DNA of 16,194 nt from an uncultured beta proteobacterium (GTDB lineage Bacteria > Pseudomonadota > Gammaproteobacteria > Burkholderiales > Burkholderiaceae_C), in contig CAIXMC010000260.1 in assembly GCA_903920405.1 (NCBI GenBank), positions 1 to 16,194 of the forward strand. Direction: 5' to 3'. The notes below the pieces were generated by a model. That model had not been told where the DNA came from. It saw only the letters and a program-made list of their open reading frames with translations, and did not search any database. Shown here in pieces: positions 144 through 9,928 of the stretch. The stretch's first letter is position 1; the number at the start of each line of letters is the position of its first letter. The translations under genes were made by a program, and so were the position numbers.

Positions 144-746
144 TTACTGTTTTTCAGAACGGTAAGCACTGTCCAAATGAACACCAATCATGTCAAACAA
201 AGTAGCAGCAGTGTTGGCCGCCAGATCGTATTGATCTGCCGGACAGACGGTATCGGCAAAGTGCAGGAAATTTTCCCAGTATTGGCGTGCAGTATCGCGA
301 TAGCCAACAAAAAACTGCATGGGCAAATGGGCTGACCCCAAGTCACACAGGGTTTTGGCAATGACTTGCCCGCCCATGTTAGAGCCTTCAACGGTGTACA
401 TCAGTCCAATCAATTCTCCAACAGACTGGGGTTCAGTAAAACCGACAGTGCCTGCAAACGGCTTTTGCTGGAGTGCTGCCAAATCAGCTTCTAACAAGGA
501 CAATCTGCGCTGAGGGCGAAATCCTGACAATTCAGGGTGTTTATCCAAATAGGCATGAATGAGAAATTCAGCTTCGGCTTGAACACTGTGCAGTGCGGCC
601 AGTGCATGGGCGTATTGCTCTGTGCCGAGTTTGGGCTTGAGCAGAGGAGCCAACAGAGGGTGATGGTCCAAACTGTGGTGCGCATGTTTGCTTGCCTGGC
701 GCAAACGATGGTGGAGGGGAGATTTTTCAGGGGTAGTGTGATTCAT
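144..746 (-). CDS. bphO: Heme oxygenase, BphO type (biliverdin-producing)
   Basis: A 200-residue heme oxygenase. The family cleaves heme to biliverdin, CO and iron in the cytoplasm; next to a bacteriophytochrome gene the expected job is supplying the biliverdin chromophore. Near the N-terminus is the helix LRQASKHAHHSLD, which fits the pattern L-R-x-A-T-R-x-x-H-x-x-L-E and makes His23 the likely proximal heme ligand. The distal-helix motif YTVEGSNMGGQVI lies at about 117-129, with GSNMGG at 121-126 as in this family. Length matches BphO-type enzymes. I chose the ATG at 746 because it overlaps the phytochrome stop codon as ATGA; a longer in-frame ATG at 806 would add 20 unconserved residues inside the upstream gene. 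No Shine-Dalgarno sequence precedes the ATG, so translation probably depends on coupling to the phytochrome gene. It is the last gene of the operon. Whether it is a BphO or another bacterial heme oxygenase is decided mainly by context. Confidence 0.9.
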   Translation of the reverse strand: MNHTTPEKSPLHHRLRQASKHAHHSLDHHPLLAPLLKPKLGTEQYAHALAALHSVQAEAEFLIHAYLDKHPELSGFRPQRRLSLLEADLAALQQKPFAGTVGFTEPQSVGELIGLMYTVEGSNMGGQVIAKTLCDLGSAHLPMQFFVGYRDTARQYWENFLHFADTVCPADQYDLAANTAATLFDMIGVHLDSAYRSEKQ

Positions 747-2233
747 AGCCAGCGTAAAAGGTTGTTGCGAAATTTTGCTGCGACGATTTGCTCTTCTTTC
801 GTCCAAGGGCGACTATAGTCACTCTTGATTTCTACCCAGCGTTCAAATGAACGCCGTGGCGACAGGGCGACGGCACCGGCGTTTTCAGTCATGGGTTTGT
901 TGGGGTTTCCTGCCCAAGCCACATGCTGAGGCTCGGCCTGGCGAAACCAGTAAAAACGTACCCAGCCCGATCGTGGCGATTGCGCTTTGATCGCCATCAT
1001 GCCGCTGGCCACTGAAAGCACCAGCGATTGATGCGGGAATATATCAGCCAGATGATCGGAACTCAAAACAAGTTCTGGGCACTGATTGACAAACCAGTCG
1101 TCAATCAAGGCCAGTCCATCCAGATTAGGTCCGTCACCGTCAATCACAACATTGTCCTGGATGGCCATGGCAAAACCTTGTGCGCCCAAAGCATCAAGCA
1201 AAGCCTGACCGTTGGTTTCAATACCGTCCAAAGGATCAGCGAAGTTGCCCAGTTTTTCCAATACCGAGTCAATGCGGCGATCTAGACTGTCAATCATCTT
1301 GAGGCGTTGACCTGACATATAGGAAGACATACCCAAGGAATAGGTGCTAGCCAGCGTGACACATGCGTTACGCTGGTCAGGAGTCAGTACTTGTGCAGTT
1401 TGATGATGACACGCTACCAGCCCCCACAGGCGGCCTGCAATGCGAATGGGTACCGAGAAAGAAGCAACAACGCCCATGTTGGCCAAGTATTCCAGATGCA
1501 CCGGCGACACACTGCGCAAGTCAGATCGGGTAAGGTCTGGAAGAGACGCATCCACGCCGAGCACCGGCACTGTGGCGGCGTGGGTATCGGGGATCATGCG
1601 TGAAGGGTTTTGCATGTAAAGATTGCGGGCAATCGCCGGAATGTCGCTGGCGGGAAAGCGAAGCCCCAGGTAGCTGCCCACATTAACGGCGGTGGCCTCG
1701 GCGATGACCTCACCCGACCAATCAGTTGCAAAGCGATAAATCATGATTCGGTCAAAACCGATGATGCTGCGAAAAGAATGCACCAGGTTTTGATGGTATT
1801 TCTCGAATTCGTCCGCATTTTGCGGAGCGTTGAGAAAAGGTTGTTGAAGTTGTTGAAGTGCGATGGGTTCAGCGGGCGCGTTGTTGCGTTCGAGTTCGAC
1901 CAGAACAAAACCGTCTCCACGAATCAACAAGGCATCAATGCGCCCAAGTGCATCCTGAACCACACCTCGTATGGCGGCCGTTTGGCCTGGTGTGGTGACC
2001 AATGCTGCAATCGTTCGTGAAGACAGCCCGCTGACATTGTCTAGCGAGTGACTCAGAACATCGCGGGGTTCTACCCCAACAAACGTCTTCAGATTGGCAC
2101 TGGCGTGGCTCACGATCAACTGCTCGCCTTCCAGGCGCAACATGGCACCAAACGCCTGTATGGCGCCTGAGAGATGCAACTGCTCGGCTTCACAGCCTTG
2201 TAACAGTCGTTCCAGAATATTAATATCGGTCAT
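743..2233 (-). CDS. bphP: Bacteriophytochrome photosensory core (PAS-GAF-PHY) without output domain
   Basis: A 496-residue cytoplasmic red/far-red photoreceptor core. The N-terminal CEAEQLHLSGAIQ carries Cys14 where biliverdin-binding bacteriophytochromes have their thioether Cys, at the start of the PAS domain (about 14-120). The GAF domain (about 140-310) has DRIMIYRF (Tyr166), the PASDIP motif (194-199, Asp197), SPVH (His246) and LWGLVACHH (His276/277), the usual chromophore-pocket residues. The PHY domain (about 320-496) has the tongue signature WAGNP at 440-444 and PRRSF at 459-463, followed by W-x-E. The protein ends at Leu496, roughly where the photosensory module of full-length phytochromes ends, before the long signalling helix; no histidine kinase, GGDEF or other effector follows, and the next gene starts at once. 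The start codon overlaps the stop of the giant upstream gene (ATGA) and has a strong AAGGAG eight bases away. The lack of an output domain is real in this sequence, and the partner is inferred to be the upstream gene product. Confidence 0.94.
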   Translation of the reverse strand: MTDINILERLLQGCEAEQLHLSGAIQAFGAMLRLEGEQLIVSHASANLKTFVGVEPRDVLSHSLDNVSGLSSRTIAALVTTPGQTAAIRGVVQDALGRIDALLIRGDGFVLVELERNNAPAEPIALQQLQQPFLNAPQNADEFEKYHQNLVHSFRSIIGFDRIMIYRFATDWSGEVIAEATAVNVGSYLGLRFPASDIPAIARNLYMQNPSRMIPDTHAATVPVLGVDASLPDLTRSDLRSVSPVHLEYLANMGVVASFSVPIRIAGRLWGLVACHHQTAQVLTPDQRNACVTLASTYSLGMSSYMSGQRLKMIDSLDRRIDSVLEKLGNFADPLDGIETNGQALLDALGAQGFAMAIQDNVVIDGDGPNLDGLALIDDWFVNQCPELVLSSDHLADIFPHQSLVLSVASGMMAIKAQSPRSGWVRFYWFRQAEPQHVAWAGNPNKPMTENAGAVALSPRRSFERWVEIKSDYSRPWTKEEQIVAAKFRNNLLRWL

Positions 2234-5200
2234 AAGTAGGACTCCTTGTGGGTATGGCTTAGGATATGCTCTGAACTGGCATTCATCATCTTGTCTGGCG
2301 TTTCAAGCAAACGCTGGAAATCTTCAACGGACAGGGGTCGGTAATACAGGTAGCCTTGGATCATATCGCAGCCATCCTGTTTGAGAACATTCAATTGCGC
2401 CTGAGTTTCAACACCTTCAGCCACTACCTGAAGGCCAAGGGCATGGGCCATGTCAATGATGGTTTTGGCAATCGATCGGTCATCGCGTTCCACGGCGATA
2501 CCATCCACGAAACTGCGATCCACCTTGAGTTCATGTAAGGGGAGTTTGCGCAAGTAGGCCAGAGACGAGTAACCCGTGCCGAAATCGTCAACACTCAGCG
2601 CAGTTCCCATGGCTGCGAGTTTGACCAGCTTCTCGCGCATAACGTCAATTCTTTGCATCAAGACACTCTCGGTGATCTCAATGCTGATGCAAGTGGCAGG
2701 AAGATTCACAGATTCCAATCTGGCCATCAGGTTGGTCACAAAATCGGTATTGCGTAATTGGTAAGCAGAGACATTGATGGCAATGCGAGGCACATTCAAA
2801 CCCTGTTTGCGCCAAGCTGCAATTTGTGCAAGCACCAAGTCCAAAACGCGCTCACCCAAAGCCATGATCAAGCCACATCCTTCCGCCACCGGGATGAACT
2901 GGGTTGGCGACACATCACCCAAAACGGGATCGCACCAGCGCAGCAGGGCTTCTGCTGCAATGACCAAACCACTTTCAAGATCGACTTTGGGTTGATAGAC
3001 CATGAACAAATGTCCATTCTCAAGTGCCCCACGCAAACCGATTTCTAGTGACATACGTTGCTGTGCGAGCACTTTCATTTCTTCTACAAAAAACTGGTAC
3101 TGGTTTTTACCTCGGTCTTTAGCTCGGTACATGGCGGTATCAGCGTTTTTAAGAAGAGTAATACTGTCGTCACCATCATCAGGAAAAATGCTGATACCGA
3201 TGCTGGCAGAGACATGCAACGGGTTGTCGCCAATCACAAACGAGGATCCAAGGCTTTCGACGATTCGCCCTGCCACTGTGTTGACCTCTTCAAGTTCGAC
3301 ATCTGCCAGCACAGCGACAAATTCGTCGCCGCCCAAGCGTGCCAAAGTATCTGCATCACGTACGCATTGCCGAAGCCGATGTGTGGCTTGTTTCAGCAGG
3401 CTATCACCGACATCATGCCCGAAGGTGTCATTGATGTTTTTGAAGTTATCCAGATCAATGAACAAGACAGCCAGGCGCTGCTTTTGGCGTTGTACCTGAA
3501 ACAAGGCTTGCTTGAGACGATCCATCAGCAAACTGCGATTGGGAAGACAAGTCAATGCGTCGTGGGTGGCCAAAAACTCAATACGCTGTTGCGACAGTTT
3601 GAGGGTGGAGATGTCACTGAAAATGGCAACGTAATTGACCAATTGACCATCGTTATTTTTGACGGTATTGATGGTCAGCCATTCTGGATAAATCTCACCG
3701 TTTTTGCGACGGTTGAGAATTTCACCTTGCCAAAAACCCTGATCAAGCAAGCTGCGCCACATCGTCTGGTAAAAAAGAGGGGGATTTTGACCCGACTTGA
3801 GCAGGCTTGGCGTTTTACCAATGACCTCATCAGCCGAGTATTCAGTGATTTGGGTAAAGGCATCGTTGATGCTCAAAATACGCGATTGCGTGTCTGTGAC
3901 CATAATGGCCTCGCCAGAACGCTCGAACACTTTGGAGGCCAGACGCAATTGCTGGTCAGCCTGGTGACGATAAGTCACATCGTTGGACTGGGTACACACC
4001 GAACGCAAGTTGCCGCTGGTATCGAAGATAGGAAATCGGATGCTGTCAATCCACAGTGTGCCCCTGTCCAAGGCTATAGCGTCGGTCGATTCCACTGCGA
4101 TGAGTTTGAGCATGACCTCAAGATCACTTGAACGTATCTGTTGTCCTAGCTCAGTGCCAAACACCTCATGGTCTGTTTTGCCCATCACGTCGTCTGCCTT
4201 GACACCCAAAAGCGTTTCAAAACGGTGATTGACAAATTCGTAGCACCCTGCTGCATCTTTGACCGAGATCAGCGACATGGAGTGATTCATGATGGACAGC
4301 AGGCGTTCCTGACTGTCCTGCGTGTGCTGCTGGGCGAGTGTCAGGTCAGTGTTGTCAATGACCACAAGCACGGCACCTTGTACCGAATCAGGGTGGTTTA
4401 ACACGGGAGTGACGAATATTTGGTAAGTGCGCCCCTCAAACTTTGTCGCAAAATTCTCTTTGGCTGCATTCGCAATGGCTGCCTTGATGTGGCTGCCAAT
4501 GTTTCGGAGATGGCCAGGCAGATTAAGACGGGTCACGGGCTGACTGGCCGATGCCATGGACAGGTCATAACTGCGCATGGCAGCACCATTGGCACGTTTG
4601 AGAATGAGCTGGTTATCAAGCAGCAAGACAGGAAAGTCAACCGTATTGAACAGACTCTCAAAATCGCTGTTGATCACCGCCAACTCTGACGATTTGATTT
4701 GGCTTTCGTCATTGGCGCTGAGCAGTTCCTCGTTGGATGCCTGTAATTCTTCGTTGGATGTTTGCAGTTCTTCCGTAAGTGCCGACATTTCTTCTTTGAA
4801 TGCACTCAAATCTTCAGCCATGGTTTGCAGTCGTTCACGCGCCAAGGCTAATTCATGGGCTAGCGCATGTTCTGCGTCCATCTTTCTCTCATTGTTTTTG
4901 TCCTGTTGTATATCCTCGGTAGGTTGATTGATCTTCTCAAATACGACCAAAAACAAATCGTTGCCGGCTGAAGATACCAGTGGATGAATAGCCAAACGCC
5001 ACACTGCCTGATCCAAAGATGCGATACAAAGTTGACGACTGTAAGCACTGACCTTGAGTCGCTGCGCACGATACAAGGTCGTTGTCACCTCGTGGGCAAA
5101 TTCGGGAACGATCAAATGCAAAAGATTCAATTCTGGCGTACCACTTGGGAAAGTAATGAACTGGGCAACTTCCCCGTGCGTGTGCAAAATTTTAAAATTG

Positions 5201-6756
5201 ACATCCACCAGCATCACCGGACCAACGCGATCGGCTAACGCGTTCATGAAAACAGTTTCGTGCATTGTGGCAAAGGCGTGCAATCCTTCAGTGGGACGTT
5301 TCAATTGACCGCGAACCAGTTTGGATGAGTATGCTGATGTGACTATCCCGCGTGAGCGAAAGATTTTGGCCTGGTGATCAACCGTTGAAAACAGTGTCTC
5401 TTGCTGATTGATCGTTTCAGCAAGACCCAAAAATACCAGTCCATTGTCAAGCAGACAACGATGCACAATGGCCAAAACCTTGGCTTGTAGATCATTATTA
5501 AAATAAATCAATACGTTACGACAAGATACCAAGTCTATCTTGGGAAAGGAAGGATCAACAGCAATGTCTTGATGAGCAAAAACAACACAATCGCGCAAAG
5601 CTTTGGTGACTTCAAAGCCGTTGTGATGGGGTTGAAAATATCGGTTGGTGTAAGAATCGGGGACATCAACCAACGCAGCCTGACTGTAAACACCGTGGCG
5701 GGCGACAGTCAGTGCGTCGTTGTCAATGTCGGTAGCAAAAACAAGCAGATGCAAAGGTTTGCGGGATTCCGTAATCAAGTCGAGGCACATCATGGCCAGT
5801 GAATAGGCTTCCTCGCCCGATGCGCAACCCACAACCCAAATACGCAGTTCTTCATCAGGCTGCTTTTGTTGCACAATTTCATAGAGATGATGTTTGAGTG
5901 CCTGGAAGGCTTCTGCATCGCGAAAAAATTCAGTCACAGAAATCAGTGCATCCTTGGCCAGCGCATCGAGTTCATTGGGATGGGTATCAATATAGGCCAG
6001 GTAGGCCTCAAGCGTGAACGTCCTGGTAGTGTTCATGCGCCGCTGAAGTCGCCGCTGAACGGTTGCTGGCTTGTAGTTGGAAAAGTCGATTTGGGTATGC
6101 AGGCGTACCCGTTCAAGCAGGTCAGCAAAGGTGTCACGATGCTCTTCTTGCTTGTTGAGATACGACGCATCGGTTGGCAAACGCAGCAAGTGATCTAAAA
6201 CATGGCAGATTTCGTCGGGTGGAGCAACGTAGTCAGCAACACCCGCTTCGATGGCCGAGCGCGGCATGCCATCATATTTGGCGGTTTCGGGAGACTGGAC
6301 AAAAGTCATGCCACCCGCATCCTTGATGGCACGCAAACCCAAAGTGCCGTCTGAACCAGTGCCTGAGAGCACGATGCCGATAGCTCTGGTGTCAAATTCT
6401 TTGGCCATCGATTGAAAAAGCAGATTGATCGATGGTTTTGGCGCAACTTCAGTGTCTGGCGTACACAGGTGCAAACGACCTTCCAAAAATTCCAGGTTCG
6501 AACCCGTCGGCACAATATAAATGACATTGGGCAGGGGTATTTCGTCAGAGACAATTTCTTGCACGGTCAACTGCGTTTGCCGCGACAAAATCTCAGCCAT
6601 CATGCTGCGATGTGATGCTGACATGTGTTGGGCAATCACAAAAATGCTGTCGGATTGCGTTGGCAAATCGGCAACCAATTGCGTCAGGGCATCCAGGCCA
6701 CCGGCAGATGCACCCATGCCAATCACATACCGTCGATTTTGAAGTGCAGAATCCAT
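2230..6756 (-). CDS. Giant hybrid signalling protein CheB-CheR-PAS(x4)-GGDEF-EAL
   Basis: A 1508-residue soluble protein without membrane segments. Residues 8-190 are a CheB methylesterase domain lacking the usual receiver domain; the triad is intact (Ser17 in GASAGG, His44, Asp136 in GTGSDGT). Residues 205-470 are a CheR methyltransferase with TEFFRD (275-280), the SAM-binding VGCASGEEAYS (309-319) and CRNVLIYF (412-419). A PAS-like domain (about 500-610) and a coiled coil (about 622-692, with EELQTSNEELQASNEEL) are typical of CheB/CheR fusions. Three further PAS domains lie at about 695-810, 815-935 and 940-1055. GGDEF (1058-1230) has an intact GGDEF at 1142-1146 and the inhibitory RxxD at 1133-1136. 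EAL (1235-1495) keeps Glu1269, Asn1328, Glu1360, Asp1390/1391, Lys1411, Glu1447 and Gln1467 with family-like spacing. Cyclic di-GMP synthesis and hydrolysis are therefore both possible, and the methylation target is unknown. The gene follows rnhB by 34 nt and its stop overlaps the phytochrome start. No good Shine-Dalgarno precedes the ATG, but CheB homology begins at residue 9-10, supporting this start. Confidence 0.93.
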   Translation of the reverse strand: MDSALQNRRYVIGMGASAGGLDALTQLVADLPTQSDSIFVIAQHMSASHRSMMAEILSRQTQLTVQEIVSDEIPLPNVIYIVPTGSNLEFLEGRLHLCTPDTEVAPKPSINLLFQSMAKEFDTRAIGIVLSGTGSDGTLGLRAIKDAGGMTFVQSPETAKYDGMPRSAIEAGVADYVAPPDEICHVLDHLLRLPTDASYLNKQEEHRDTFADLLERVRLHTQIDFSNYKPATVQRRLQRRMNTTRTFTLEAYLAYIDTHPNELDALAKDALISVTEFFRDAEAFQALKHHLYEIVQQKQPDEELRIWVVGCASGEEAYSLAMMCLDLITESRKPLHLLVFATDIDNDALTVARHGVYSQAALVDVPDSYTNRYFQPHHNGFEVTKALRDCVVFAHQDIAVDPSFPKIDLVSCRNVLIYFNNDLQAKVLAIVHRCLLDNGLVFLGLAETINQQETLFSTVDHQAKIFRSRGIVTSAYSSKLVRGQLKRPTEGLHAFATMHETVFMNALADRVGPVMLVDVNFKILHTHGEVAQFITFPSGTPELNLLHLIVPEFAHEVTTTLYRAQRLKVSAYSRQLCIASLDQAVWRLAIHPLVSSAGNDLFLVVFEKINQPTEDIQQDKNNERKMDAEHALAHELALARERLQTMAEDLSAFKEEMSALTEELQTSNEELQASNEELLSANDESQIKSSELAVINSDFESLFNTVDFPVLLLDNQLILKRANGAAMRSYDLSMASASQPVTRLNLPGHLRNIGSHIKAAIANAAKENFATKFEGRTYQIFVTPVLNHPDSVQGAVLVVIDNTDLTLAQQHTQDSQERLLSIMNHSMSLISVKDAAGCYEFVNHRFETLLGVKADDVMGKTDHEVFGTELGQQIRSSDLEVMLKLIAVESTDAIALDRGTLWIDSIRFPIFDTSGNLRSVCTQSNDVTYRHQADQQLRLASKVFERSGEAIMVTDTQSRILSINDAFTQITEYSADEVIGKTPSLLKSGQNPPLFYQTMWRSLLDQGFWQGEILNRRKNGEIYPEWLTINTVKNNDGQLVNYVAIFSDISTLKLSQQRIEFLATHDALTCLPNRSLLMDRLKQALFQVQRQKQRLAVLFIDLDNFKNINDTFGHDVGDSLLKQATHRLRQCVRDADTLARLGGDEFVAVLADVELEEVNTVAGRIVESLGSSFVIGDNPLHVSASIGISIFPDDGDDSITLLKNADTAMYRAKDRGKNQYQFFVEEMKVLAQQRMSLEIGLRGALENGHLFMVYQPKVDLESGLVIAAEALLRWCDPVLGDVSPTQFIPVAEGCGLIMALGERVLDLVLAQIAAWRKQGLNVPRIAINVSAYQLRNTDFVTNLMARLESVNLPATCISIEITESVLMQRIDVMREKLVKLAAMGTALSVDDFGTGYSSLAYLRKLPLHELKVDRSFVDGIAVERDDRSIAKTIIDMAHALGLQVVAEGVETQAQLNVLKQDGCDMIQGYLYYRPLSVEDFQRLLETPDKMMNASSEHILSHTHKESYL
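2242..2247 (-). promoter_or_regulatory. Strong ribosome binding site of the phytochrome gene
   Basis: AAGGAG on the minus strand, eight bases before the ATG at 2233. It lies inside the last codons of the upstream giant gene (the Lys-Glu of its C-terminal HKESYL). Together with the ATGA overlap it fixes the phytochrome start and allows both re-initiation and independent initiation. Confidence 0.8.
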
Positions 6757-6790
6757 CGTGACAGACTGTTGGTGGGTAAATCGGGATGTG

Positions 6791-7441
6791 TCAAGTATAG
6801 GCCTTGGTTATCTGGGTTATTTGGAGAGTCCTTTGCTTCATTGCACTTCTGTGAATAACCTCGCGCACCGGTCGAAAAGTGGTTCGGTGCTGGGGGCATG
6901 CGCCATGCTCGCGCAAAGCGGCCAGATGCTGTGCTGTGCCATAGCCTTTGTGCTGTGCAAATCCATAGACAGGGTATTGCAAATCAATATCTTCACACCA
7001 GCGGTCGCGGGTGACTTTGGCCAAAATGGAGGCGGCTGAAATGGCGGCCACCAGCGTGTCTCCTTTGACGATGGACTCCGATCGCATGGGCAAAATGGGT
7101 AAGCGGTTGCCGTCAATCAGCACCAGTTTGGGGGGCAGGCGCAGGCCTTGTACGGCGCGACGCATGGCCAGCAAGGTGGCTTGCAAAATGTTGATGTCTT
7201 CAATTTCTTCAACACTGGCTTGTGCCACGGAAAAACAGAGGGCATGGGCACGAATCTCATCAAAGAGCCTCTCACGTTGGCGCGCCGTCAGTTGTTTGGA
7301 ATCTGCCAGGCCAACGATGGGGTGTTGGTCATCCAATATAACGGCGGCAGCCACCACCGGCCCAGCCAAAGGGCCACGACCCGCTTCATCAACACCGGCA
7401 ATCAGGCCATTGACACCCCAGTCAAGCGCCACCTGCTGCAT
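6791..7441 (-). CDS. rnhB: Ribonuclease HII
   Basis: RNase HII cuts RNA in RNA-DNA hybrids and at single embedded ribonucleotides, as in ribonucleotide excision repair. The signature [16 protein letters not shown] holds Asp18 and Glu19; LIDGN supplies Asp111 and VKGD supplies Asp129, with the same 18-residue spacing as Asp108-Asp126 of the E. coli enzyme. [13 protein letters not shown] and [11 protein letters not shown] are also family-typical. The start is uncertain. I give the ATG at 7441 (216 residues), which leaves about 13 residues before the conserved block, as in relatives. An in-frame ATG at 7504 would overlap lpxB by 29 nt and add 21 unconserved residues. Neither has a recognisable Shine-Dalgarno. 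The C-terminus runs about 20 residues past the usual end. rnhB is the usual last conserved gene of this cluster after lpxB. Confidence 0.93.
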
Positions 7442-7475
7442 GATGGACGGGTGAATCTTGGTAGAGTGCGCAGGT

Positions 7476-8645
7476 TTACCAAGAGAGGATGTTTTCAATG
7501 GCATGGGCAGCAAGGTGGGGAGTATCTTGCTGCAACTCACGGTGCAGTGCAGCAAAACGTTGTTCAATTTGCATGATTTTTGCAGGCTGGTGAACTGAAT
7601 CCTCCAGCCAGGTTAAAACTGCATTGGCCAAAGCTGGTGGAGTGGCAGCATCTTGCAGGAATTCAGGCACCACAAATTGCTGGCACAAAATATTAGGCAG
7701 CCCCACCCAGGGCTGGAGTTGTTTGCGCCGCATGATCTGCCACGACAATGCACCCACGGCATAAGTGATGACCATGGGCCGCTTGAAAAGCGCAGCCTCC
7801 AGCGTGGCAGTGCCACTGGCCACCAAAGCAACATCACAGGCTGCCAGTGCAGTATGTGACTGTCCGACCACAATATGTAACTTCTCTTGCATGTTGCAGG
7901 CAACGGCTGCGGCCATGATGTGGGATCGAAGAAAAGGCACGGCAGGAACTATGAATTTTGTAGCTGACTTTGCTTGATGGATAAGGGCTGCAGCCCGAAA
8001 ACACCTTAAAGCTATGTGTTTGATTTCAGACAAGCGGCTGCCCGGCAAAATGGCAACCACCGGGCAGTTGGCAGGCAGTCCAAGTTGCAAACGCGCAGCA
8101 GCTCGATCGGGCTGCATGGGAATGACATTGGCCAGTGGATGCCCCACATAAGTCGCTGCAATGCCGTGCTGTGCCAAAAATGCTGGCTCAAATGGAAAAA
8201 TACACAGCATCACATCAACACTGCGTTTTATTTTTTCAAGCCGCTCTGGCCGCCATGCCCAGACCGATGGGCAGACAAAATGCACAGTTTTGATGCCACT
8301 GTGCCTGAGGGCAGCTTCAAGGTCAAGATTAAAGTCCGGCGCATCCACCCCAATGAACACATCAGGCCGTTCCAAGAGCAACCGTTTTTTGAGTTGGGTG
8401 CGAATACCCATAATTTCGGGGTAACGGCGAAAAACATCCCAGCCAAAACCATGAACGGATAATTTGTTATGCCCCCACCAAGCCTGAAAACCGCGTTGTA
8501 CCATCTGCGGCCCACCAATGCCAGCGCTGCGGAGTTCTGGCCAGCGCGAGCGAAGGCCGTCAAGCAGCAAGCCGGCAAGCAAATCCCCCGAGGTTTCGCC
8601 TGCCACCAGTGCCGCATTCAGTGTAGTGTGGTTTGTCGGGCGCAC
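7476..8645 (-). CDS. lpxB: Lipid-A-disaccharide synthase
   Basis: LpxB joins UDP-diacylglucosamine to lipid X (2,3-diacylglucosamine 1-phosphate) to give the tetra-acylated disaccharide 1-phosphate, a peripheral inner-membrane step of lipid A synthesis. Visible glycosyltransferase family 19 motifs are LVAGETSGD (13-21), GIGGPQM, DAPDFNL (Asp101), [33 protein letters not shown] and [12 protein letters not shown] chose GTG at 8645 (389 residues): it lies 11 nt after the lpxA stop, a weak AAGAG sits eight bases upstream, and homology begins at residue 9-13. An in-frame ATG at 8729 would overlap lpxA by about 70 nt and add an Arg-rich tail foreign to the family. The length is close to the usual 380-390 residues. 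The rnhB coding region begins right after, or overlapping, its TAA stop. Confidence 0.95.
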
Positions 8646-8656
8646 TGCGATTGCTC

Positions 8657-9451
8657 TTATCGAACGATACCGCGTTCTGGTGAAGTTCGCTCTAAAAAAG
8701 AGAGCATCATATGCACGTCTGGCGTGCATTGCGGGCAGTTTTTATCTAATTTTGCAATGCGTTCACAGGCAGACGCAAGAGTGATGTCACTGCGATAAAG
8801 TGCTTTGTACATGGCCTTGACTGCTGCTATGCGCTCAGGCGAAAAACCGCGTCTGCGCAAGCCTTCAAAGTTCATGGAGCGCGCTTTAGCCGGTTGGCCC
8901 TGGCATAAAACAAACGGCGGCAAGTCGGCCAGAATCACTGAACACAGGGCGGTCATACAGTGTGATCCCATTTTGACAAACTGATGCACCATAGTAAAAC
9001 CACCCAAAATAGCCCAATCGCCCACATGCACATGCCCTGCCAATTGTGCATTGTTGGCAAAAATGGTGTGGTTGCCCACTTGACAATCGTGCGCCAAATG
9101 AACGTAAGCCATCACCCAGTTGTCATCCCCCACACAGGTGACGCCAGCATCGCCAGGCGAACCTATATTGAAGGTGCAAAACTCACGAATGGTGTTGCGG
9201 TGACCTATGACCAGTTCACAAGGTTCGCCGTTGTATTTTTTATCCTGCGGAATAGCACCTAGCGATGCAAATTGAAAAATGCGGTTGTCACAACCGATGG
9301 TGGTATGGCCTTCAATCACGCAATGGGGGCCTACGGTAGTGCCTGTGCCAATTTTGACGTGGGGACCAATGACACTGTAAGGGCCCACCGTGACTGTACC
9401 GTCAAGTTCGGCTGCCATATCAACAATCGCAGTGGTGTGGATGGCGGTCAA
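8657..9451 (-). CDS. lpxA: UDP-N-acetylglucosamine O-acyltransferase
   Basis: LpxA makes the first acyl transfer of lipid A synthesis, moving an (R)-3-hydroxyacyl chain from ACP to the 3-OH of UDP-GlcNAc in the cytoplasm. The left-handed beta-helix hexapeptide repeats run from about residue 4 to 190 (TAIVD, VGPYSVIGPHVKIG, LAGHVHVGDWAILGG). The catalytic base is His121 in VHLAHDC, equivalent to E. coli His125. The C-terminal helical part has MNFEGLRRRGFSPERI. The start is TTG at 9451, giving 264 residues against 262 in E. coli: GAGGA lies seven bases upstream, overlapping the fabZ stop, and homology begins at residue 3-4. The only upstream in-frame ATG (9535) lies inside fabZ. The chain-length position (E. 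coli Gly173) is Leu169 here, which suggests a shorter acyl chain. Confidence 0.96.
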   Translation of the reverse strand: MTAIHTTAIVDMAAELDGTVTVGPYSVIGPHVKIGTGTTVGPHCVIEGHTTIGCDNRIFQFASLGAIPQDKKYNGEPCELVIGHRNTIREFCTFNIGSPGDAGVTCVGDDNWVMAYVHLAHDCQVGNHTIFANNAQLAGHVHVGDWAILGGFTMVHQFVKMGSHCMTALCSVILADLPPFVLCQGQPAKARSMNFEGLRRRGFSPERIAAVKAMYKALYRSDITLASACERIAKLDKNCPQCTPDVHMMLSFLERTSPERGIVR

Positions 9452-9463: not shown

Positions 9464-9899
9464 AAGCCATTTTGCGCACGGCGCAGGTGATTTTGGCTTC
9501 AACGGCCAGTTCACCATCGACCAAAGCACGGGCATTGAATTTAAAAATGCCTACTTTCATGCGCAACAGCTCGACTTGCAAAATCAATTGATCACCCGGC
9601 ACCACAGGGCGTTTGAAGCGTGCGGCATCAATACCAGCAAAGTAATAGATCATGTCGTCTTGCGGTGCAGAGTCCATGGCATCAAACGCCAGCAGCGCTG
9701 CGGCCTGTGCCAGGGCTTCAATCATCAGCACACCCGGCATGACGGGGCGGTTAGGAAAATGCCCTTCAAAAAAAGGCTCGTTGATGGTGACGTTTTTCAA
9801 CGCCTTGATGGTCTTGCCCTTGTCAATTTCAAGCACCCGATCGACCAGTAAAAAAGGATAACGGTGCGGTAACTGCTTGAGAATGGTGTGAATATCCAT
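9462..9899 (-). CDS. fabZ: 3-hydroxyacyl-[acyl-carrier-protein] dehydratase FabZ
   Basis: FabZ dehydrates (R)-3-hydroxyacyl-ACP to trans-2-enoyl-ACP in fatty-acid elongation and competes with LpxA and LpxD for hydroxyacyl-ACP. It is a 145-residue hot-dog fold protein with [11 protein letters not shown] (11-21), the catalytic His47 in [11 protein letters not shown] and Glu61 in MIEALAQAA, then [19 protein letters not shown]. The length is normal. The N-terminus [15 protein letters not shown] matches betaproteobacterial FabZ proteins and supports the ATG at 9899. No Shine-Dalgarno precedes that ATG. The 84-nt leader holds a perfect hairpin and an extended -10 like element, so fabZ-lpxA-lpxB may have an extra promoter or control point here. 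A TAA blocks any longer in-frame version upstream. Confidence 0.96.
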
Positions 9900-9928
9900 G
9901 GTGTTTTTTAACGTGAAAGAACTTTAAA

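Follow-up and report, generated by a model that had tools for sequence, protein, structure and literature searches.

A stand-alone bacteriophytochrome encoded beside a CheB-CheR-PAS-GGDEF-EAL protein is a candidate light-sensing subunit of a cyclic di-GMP enzyme

Most work on phytochrome signalling deals with a change that travels along an unbroken helix to an attached enzyme. In IsPadC and BphG1, for example, a helix links a phytochrome core to a GGDEF or GGDEF-EAL enzyme within a single chain. Bacteriophytochrome cores share a biliverdin-binding cysteine before the PAS domain, a DIP motif and a PRxSF tongue. Fusions of CheB, CheR and PAS domains mostly end in a histidine kinase. Sensors encoded apart from their enzymes are also described. 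In the PapB-PapA pair of Rhodopseudomonas palustris, a BLUF protein regulates, in a complex, a separate EAL protein. In the SwH-NOX-SwDGC pair of Shewanella woodyi, a separate sensor binds and controls a bifunctional GGDEF-EAL enzyme (both PMC8846402, available part of the text). Here, we analysed a single 16,194-base contig (CAIXMC010000260.1; the whole stretch is hereafter the window) from a draft genome of 2.68 Mb in 458 contigs. The window encodes a stand-alone PAS-GAF-PHY bacteriophytochrome between a heme oxygenase and a CheB-CheR-PAS-GGDEF-EAL protein (hereafter the large protein). The phytochrome probably serves as a separate light-sensing subunit of this large cyclic di-GMP (c-di-GMP) enzyme, acting by contact; we infer both the contact and the control by light.

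The window closely resembles a locus of 'Candidatus Symbiobacter mobilis', where the gene order is the same and the phytochrome (Cenrod_2641) and heme oxygenase (Cenrod_2642) are 73% and 61% identical to those of the window. According to the available text of PMC4053972, Cenrod_2641 has a 706/754 nm photocycle with a fast initial dark-return rate (0.2 per second), and Cenrod_2642 is active when expressed. The authors find that the range 700-760 nm fits the light response of the consortium, call Cenrod_2641 output-less and compare it with PixD. The main text, as available, has no match for CheB, Cenrod_2640 or Cenrod_2639. The annealing parts of the printed Cenrod_2641 primers match our locus L029, from genome G006, exactly at 7819-7839 and 9289-9309, as does the Cenrod_2642 reverse primer at 9896-9914. 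Hence, the G006 locus is the published locus. In L029, the large gene ends at 7744, 74 bases before the published Cenrod_2641 start codon. An earlier note on the window, made from sequence, knew of no characterised system with this layout. For the phytochrome and heme oxygenase that view has to be given up, since orthologues have been expressed and are active (PMC4053972, available text). No other paper on the phytochrome-large protein pair was found in the open-access literature, most subscription journals lying outside that search, and the pair is not described in the available parts of PMC5812497, PMC6532209 and PMC12471899. The known half is the photoreceptor and its heme oxygenase; the half that is new after this literature search is the constant large partner.

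The earlier note read three genes joined by two ATGA overlaps, and the open reading frames (ORFs) reproduce its coordinates, lengths and overlaps throughout (Table 1). For the heme oxygenase we took the ATG at 746 as start; the TTG at 806 in the ORF list was judged less likely. Conservation of this neighbourhood beyond close strains had been set beforehand as a test. We read 17 stand-alone phytochrome loci from 16 genomes or records (the window, G080, KT_bin-2367, G006, G066, G081, G038 with two, G751, G848, G492, G942, G1105, G1305, G1325, G1226 and G1317). L026 and L028 are one contig and were counted once, while L134 (G1006) and L102 gave no usable ORF and were dropped. At 16 of the 17 loci, the large gene immediately precedes the phytochrome on the same strand. 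It is one ORF at 14 loci (shortened in G081) and two ORFs, with order kept, at two (G492 and L033 of G038). At L033, a 483-base gap to the phytochrome is overlapped by a 192-residue ORF call. At L032, the other G038 locus, the contig starts with the phytochrome, which is followed by a PAS-GGDEF gene. Outside the genus, the large gene lies upstream at 9/9 loci, all located with the phytochrome query alone, at phytochrome identities of 33-48%; one of these, G492, belongs to another class. A neighbourhood confined to close strains is hence rejected.

At the junction between large gene and phytochrome, five of the 17 loci including the window have a 4-base overlap, two an 8-base overlap and eight a gap of 5-76 bases, where gap sizes depend on the choice of start codon. 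The heme oxygenase adjoins at 13/17 loci, weakly in G1317 (27%, E 3e-6); tblastn did not find it at the loci of G066, G751, G848 or at L032. Protein databases gave a consistent picture. When 120 listed phytochromes were set against 120 listed large proteins, 20 pairs came from source contigs of identical size, where shifted lengths gave 0.28 on average. These pairs, among them that of the culturable Rhodoferax aquaticus, are deduced from contig size; only that of 'Ca. S. mobilis' (P0004/P0123) was read on one contig (L029). As a control, we took the 18 remaining phytochrome matches in the genus and examined 13 of them, setting aside G039:C116, G023:C29, G079:C685, G080:C92 and G079:C283 (partial, of unknown kind). 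Neither the large gene nor any gene matching CheB or CheR adjoins any of these 13 output-bearing phytochromes, although the contig of L085 shows no neighbours and that of L083 lacks them on one side. Judged by gene neighbourhood, the window pairs an output-less photoreceptor with a separate gene for a c-di-GMP enzyme.

We next consider the phytochrome itself. Its PAS_2 (43 bits), GAF (50 bits) and PHY (121 bits) matches are all above the Pfam cut-offs, and PHY spans residues 323-494 of 496. Pfam found no domain after PHY and no BLUF match. In a model of P0001, which is 99% identical to the window phytochrome, the last helix covers 479-495 of 496 residues. Hence, there is no signalling helix beyond PHY. 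A homologue search over 5.8 billion proteins scored 7996 candidates at 0.55-1.75 times the query length, a limit that kept longer phytochromes from appearing, and gave 2120 relatives. The best 120 of the 2120 are 45-99% identical, and every one of these 120 shows PAS_2, GAF and PHY, or just GAF and PHY, and no other domain. Of these, 116 count as full-length (at least 480 residues; actual span 489-509). Cys14, D197 and I198 are present in 116/116 and P199 in 115; in the tongue, P459, S462 and F463 are present in all 116 and R460 in 115. By domains and motifs, the window protein is thus predicted to be a bacteriophytochrome photosensory core. The earlier note's complete core with Cys14 and no effector therefore agrees with Pfam, the homologue alignment and the model, and its heme oxygenase with a Pfam match to Heme_oxygenase of 33 bits (cut-off 23).

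The stand-alone proteins form a family of their own. The window phytochrome falls far below the cut-off of the full-length BphP family NF041576 (222 bits against 1040, 622-position model). Its closest solved structures are ordinary bacteriophytochromes, at no more than 246.7 bits, and its sequence relatives include PDB 5llw and 6et7, which we take to be IsPadC. In the main clade, 98/116 full-length homologues have a C-terminal WL. In a tree of 36 stand-alone and 19 output-bearing phytochromes (14 of the latter from the genus and five from plasmids of other bacteria), the two groups are cleanly split with an ultrafast bootstrap of 100; inner nodes of the main clade are weakly supported. FastTree with 14 output-bearing phytochromes gave the same clean split with support of 1.0. 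Recent truncation of a normal phytochrome is rejected, given this split and the finding that 0/116 full-length homologues extend more than three residues past the window end. The phytochrome also matched 135 records of a plasmid collection, all below 60% identity; 25 listed records span 31.7-34.1%, and 10 of these carry the name histidine kinase.

The domain order that the earlier note gave the large protein is borne out by Pfam and by an AlphaFold2 model. Pfam matches CheB, CheR_N, CheR, several PAS domains, GGDEF and EAL (Table 1), and found no receiver domain with CheB. The best Pfam PAS stretches cover only the last three of four PAS domains. The model of residues 472-1060 (mean predicted local distance difference test score 81, predicted template modelling score 0.33) contains four PAS folds and a long helix, read from secondary structure, and the top fold matches of this region are PAS proteins. 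Hence, four PAS domains is the right count. PAS-D matches the flavin adenine dinucleotide (FAD)-containing PAS domain of NifL (36%) and resembles the redox PAS pair of MmoS, so the large protein may, by analogy, sense redox or oxygen besides light.

To assess enzyme motifs we aligned 34 paired large proteins: that of the window, 14 from the loci and 19 paired through identical source-contig size (G492 is not among them). GGDEF and RxxD are kept in 34/34. So are the EAL motif, N1328, E1363, D1390, D1391, K1411 and Q1467, while E1447 and E1450 are kept in 33/34. The exception, G848 (L038 3069-7568), has E1447D and E1450G with GGDEF intact, and is perhaps a cyclase-only version. In CheB, S17 and H44 are found in 29/34 (five gaps) and D136 in 33/34 (one gap). 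The S17/H44 gaps of P0007, P0009 and P0017 accompany shorter N-termini; that of G081 may be an alignment matter, as its residues 5-69 still align by BLAST. In CheR, E315, R413, N414 and Y418 are found in 32/34 (two gaps), G310 in 31/34 (replaced in three) and D343 in 32/34, and S313 is mostly T (27/34). We assume that the checked CheB, GGDEF and EAL residues are the catalytic ones. The window protein hence has the motifs expected of an active diguanylate cyclase and c-di-GMP phosphodiesterase, and is a CheB-CheR fusion, with both domains and their catalytic residues on one chain.

Table 1. Features of the three-gene set in the window (aa, residues of the encoded protein; CDS, coding sequence)
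Feature	Position	Strand	Basis
Heme oxygenase CDS, 200 aa, biliverdin supplier	144..746	-	Pfam; 61% identity to active Cenrod_2642
ATGA overlap, phytochrome stop / heme oxygenase start	743..746	-	ORFs
Stand-alone PAS-GAF-PHY bacteriophytochrome CDS, 496 aa, without output domain	743..2233	-	ORF, Pfam, homologues, model
Codon of chromophore Cys14	2192..2194	-	C in 116/116 full-length homologues
ATGA overlap, large-gene stop / phytochrome start	2230..2233	-	ORFs
CheB-CheR-PAS(x4)-GGDEF-EAL CDS (large protein), 1508 aa	2230..6756	-	ORF and Pfam; adjoins phytochrome in other genomes
EAL phosphodiesterase domain, aa 1241-1474, checked motif residues present	2335..3036	-	Pfam and residue check
GGDEF diguanylate cyclase domain, aa 1063-1219, GGDEF and RxxD motifs	3100..3570	-	Pfam and residue check
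PAS-D, aa ~950-1048, resembles NifL FAD-containing PAS and MmoS PAS pair	3613..3909	-	Pfam, model, fold match
PAS-C, aa ~829-926	3979..4272	-	Pfam and model
PAS-B, aa ~710-801	4354..4629	-	Pfam and model
Long helix, probable coiled coil, aa ~632-705	4642..4863	-	Model
PAS-A, aa ~498-609	4930..5265	-	Read from model; best Pfam stretches absent there
CheR N-terminal and S-adenosylmethionine-binding methyltransferase domains, aa 210-463 (CheR_N 210-260, CheR 274-463)	5368..6129	-	Pfam and residue check
CheB methylesterase domain, aa 12-185, with S17, H44, D136	6202..6723	-	Pfam and residue check

Upstream of the large gene, 34 bases (6757-6790) separate its start from a putative rnhB. This is the end of a minus-strand cell-envelope gene block, read by eye from the window ORFs, with no family scan, as dxr-rseP-bamA-skp-lpxD-fabZ-lpxA-lpxB-rnhB. 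Scanning 6600-7700 for promoters returned nothing on the minus strand. The cassette of G080 lies in the same place as that of the window, and the upstream ORFs differ in KT_bin-2367, G006, G066 and G081, as if the three-gene set moves as a cassette. Upstream of the G066 pair (L030 8763-13632) are a 1065-residue PAS-GGDEF-EAL gene and a 601-residue ORF. The latter overlaps a match to the signalling domain of methyl-accepting chemotaxis proteins (MCPs; G066:C134:8880-9350), so the G066 cluster may include a chemoreceptor. Compared with G080, the ratio of nonsynonymous to synonymous substitution rates (dN/dS) is 0.087 for the phytochrome, 0.149 for the large protein and 0.125 for the heme oxygenase. 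These values, with recurrence in another class, indicate that the three-gene arrangement is more than chance.

The phytochrome-large protein system is rare and patchy, and spread over at least two classes. Within the genus, phytochrome matches (E ≤ 1e-3) occur in 15/89 genomes, with stand-alone ones in six; the partial match G079:C283 is undecided. Even samples searched at E ≤ 1e-80 gave 1/399 genomes for the family, 4/398 for the phylum and 3/369 for the class, counting the window's own genome each time. At E ≤ 1e-75, 5/131 genomes of one order, 1/48 of another order and 2/118 of one family were positive; weaker stand-alone relatives would escape either cut-off. G942 was the sole genome searched of its order, and one further relative, L027, came from a separate search.

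How the pairing arose can be judged from large proteins with and without a phytochrome. The CheB-CheR part has matches (E ≤ 1e-60) in 66/89 genus genomes. Open frames of at least 1400 residues were found at six of these places, four phytochrome-linked and two not (L095 and L096). When 274 genomes sampled from the class were searched (E ≤ 1e-95), the top two matches beyond the window's own genome (G942 and G1105) both proved phytochrome-linked. Nine other places from this sample were fetched, and three encode GGDEF-EAL proteins that are phytochrome-free in the stretch read (L136, L139 and L141). Rooted on L096, the large-protein tree places the linked proteins in one clade (support 0.984) and five unlinked ones outside. 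The clade also holds 11 database proteins of unknown linkage, and G081 and a G038 locus were left out of both this tree and the co-divergence analysis below. A large protein of Paramagnetospirillum magneticum, P0134, was noticed among the relatives. The earlier note supposed that sensor and effector had been separated. As history, this finds no direct support: no fused phytochrome-large protein ancestor was seen in the loci and trees examined. The simplest history, and one that fits better than the cutting of a fused protein, is that an existing CheB-CheR-PAS-GGDEF-EAL protein recruited a stand-alone phytochrome.

Two considerations lead from neighbourhood to contact. No helix passes a signal down the phytochrome's own chain, so the phytochrome has to work through a partner, and its sole consistent neighbour is the large protein. 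In addition, the PapB-PapA and SwH-NOX-SwDGC precedents show that separate sensors can control EAL or GGDEF-EAL proteins. Hence, we propose the following sequence. Biliverdin made by the heme oxygenase would be bound by Cys14 of the phytochrome. Red and far-red light would switch the phytochrome, the photocycle being expected by analogy with Cenrod_2641. The phytochrome would bind the large protein encoded directly upstream, and binding would shift the balance between the cyclase and phosphodiesterase activities of the large protein, placing local c-di-GMP under the control of light; we infer this step, including its direction. Through its CheB and CheR domains, the same complex probably also acts on chemoreceptor methylation.

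Phytochrome and large-protein distances correlate with r = 0.905 on 32 pairs, a value reached by 0/1000 permutations; the near-duplicate rows G066/P0009 and G942/P0108 were retained. Several observations weigh against the proposal. The correlation falls to 0.860 on 30 pairs and to 0.669 on 27 main-clade pairs. At the same nine loci, the heme oxygenase control reaches r = 0.850 with the phytochrome, against 0.948 for the large protein. As heme oxygenase needs no contact with either partner, co-divergence largely reflects joint inheritance. The distant phytochrome clade lacks a conserved WL tail. Two of the controls speak against strict specificity: L088 (47-10728) holds a 1747-residue output-bearing phytochrome with, upstream, a PAS-GGDEF-EAL gene and a contig-start fragment with the coil typical of CheB-CheR fusions, both separated from the phytochrome by a 449-residue ORF, and at L093 a GGDEF gene stands directly behind an output-bearing phytochrome. 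Finally, the large architecture exists with no adjoining phytochrome in L095, L096, L136, L139 and L141, and therefore its domains can work without one.

The part of the large protein that is contacted bears on an alternative in which the phytochrome regulates the CheB-CheR half, and so chemoreceptor methylation, while the GGDEF-EAL half answers to the PAS domains only. Consistent with this, the CheB triad and CheR E315, R413, N414 and Y418 are conserved in every sequence not gapped at those positions, and MCP signalling domains, 8-38 in each, occur in 15/15 pair-carrying genomes searched (25 in that of the window). Other evidence points to the opposite end of the chain. Phytochrome divergence shows its highest partial correlation with EAL (0.55-0.66) and a negative one with CheR (-0.33 to -0.46); distance-correlation interface mapping gave hints for EAL and PAS-A only. 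Where the large gene is split (L033 and L039), the GGDEF-EAL piece is the part that adjoins the phytochrome. The large protein of G081 (L031 6308-9304) lacks residues 70-445 and 489-637, that is half of CheB, nearly all of CheR and PAS-A, yet the frame is open and its PAS-GGDEF-EAL part adjoins the phytochrome, although the shortening may be an assembly artefact. From these hints, PAS-GGDEF-EAL is most likely the contacted half, and we regard control of CheB-CheR alone as highly unlikely.

Common regulation could also account for the linkage. The pair would be co-transcribed for light and motility, with the phytochrome signalling elsewhere, such as to a chemoreceptor or histidine kinase. The many MCP signalling domains mean that other partners exist, and the heme oxygenase, an operon mate that makes no contact, co-varies with the phytochrome too. 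Yet the large gene holds its place more strictly than the heme oxygenase (16/17 against 13/17), ORFs beyond the cluster differ among most loci (by eye, no family-library scan), and the large gene is absent beside all 13 output-bearing phytochromes of the genus. We therefore think common regulation alone unlikely. Alternatively, a phytochrome without an output domain could be a pigment store or a dominant-negative relic, its output lost, carried along by the operon. This is scarcely credible for a protein with a dN/dS of 0.087 against its nearest relative, invariant Cys14, D197 and I198, PRxSF residues kept in 115 or 116 of 116 homologues and a constant C-terminus in the main clade. Moreover, the orthologue from 'Ca. 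S. mobilis' photocycles between red and far-red and reverts rapidly in the dark (PMC4053972, available text). A separate light-sensing subunit acting on the large c-di-GMP enzyme remains the reading that we consider probable.

If so, phytochromes would have another signalling route, in which the chain ends where the helix should begin and one partner gene is kept, and nature would provide a two-part red-light tool. A candidate output can also be named for Cenrod_2641, the photoactive phytochrome of the motile partner in a phototrophic consortium, published as output-less. More tentatively, the whole phytochrome family, across at least two proteobacterial classes, could serve one dedicated partner as its detachable light subunit; the partner, with four enzyme domains, would tie red light to c-di-GMP and chemoreceptor adaptation. 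In 'Chlorochromatium aggregatum', the pair might then be the missing output of the central rod's light-accumulation response.

Compared with known systems, the window differs from single-chain IsPadC and BphG1 in that its phytochrome chain stops with the last PHY helix. Its large protein shares CheB-CheR and further domains with CheB-CheR-PAS fusions; most full-length ones of the genus have ~870-1100 residues, whereas that of the window has 1508 and carries GGDEF-EAL. SwH-NOX-SwDGC relies on a nitric oxide heme sensor, not light, and the available part of PMC8846402 mentions neither CheB nor CheR. PapB-PapA is alike in joining an output-less photoreceptor gene to a separate gene for a c-di-GMP enzyme, the window pair being defined by gene neighbourhood. 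The components differ: PapB-PapA combines a blue-light BLUF flavoprotein with a solo EAL protein, whereas the window combines a biliverdin phytochrome with a CheB-CheR-PAS-GGDEF-EAL protein.

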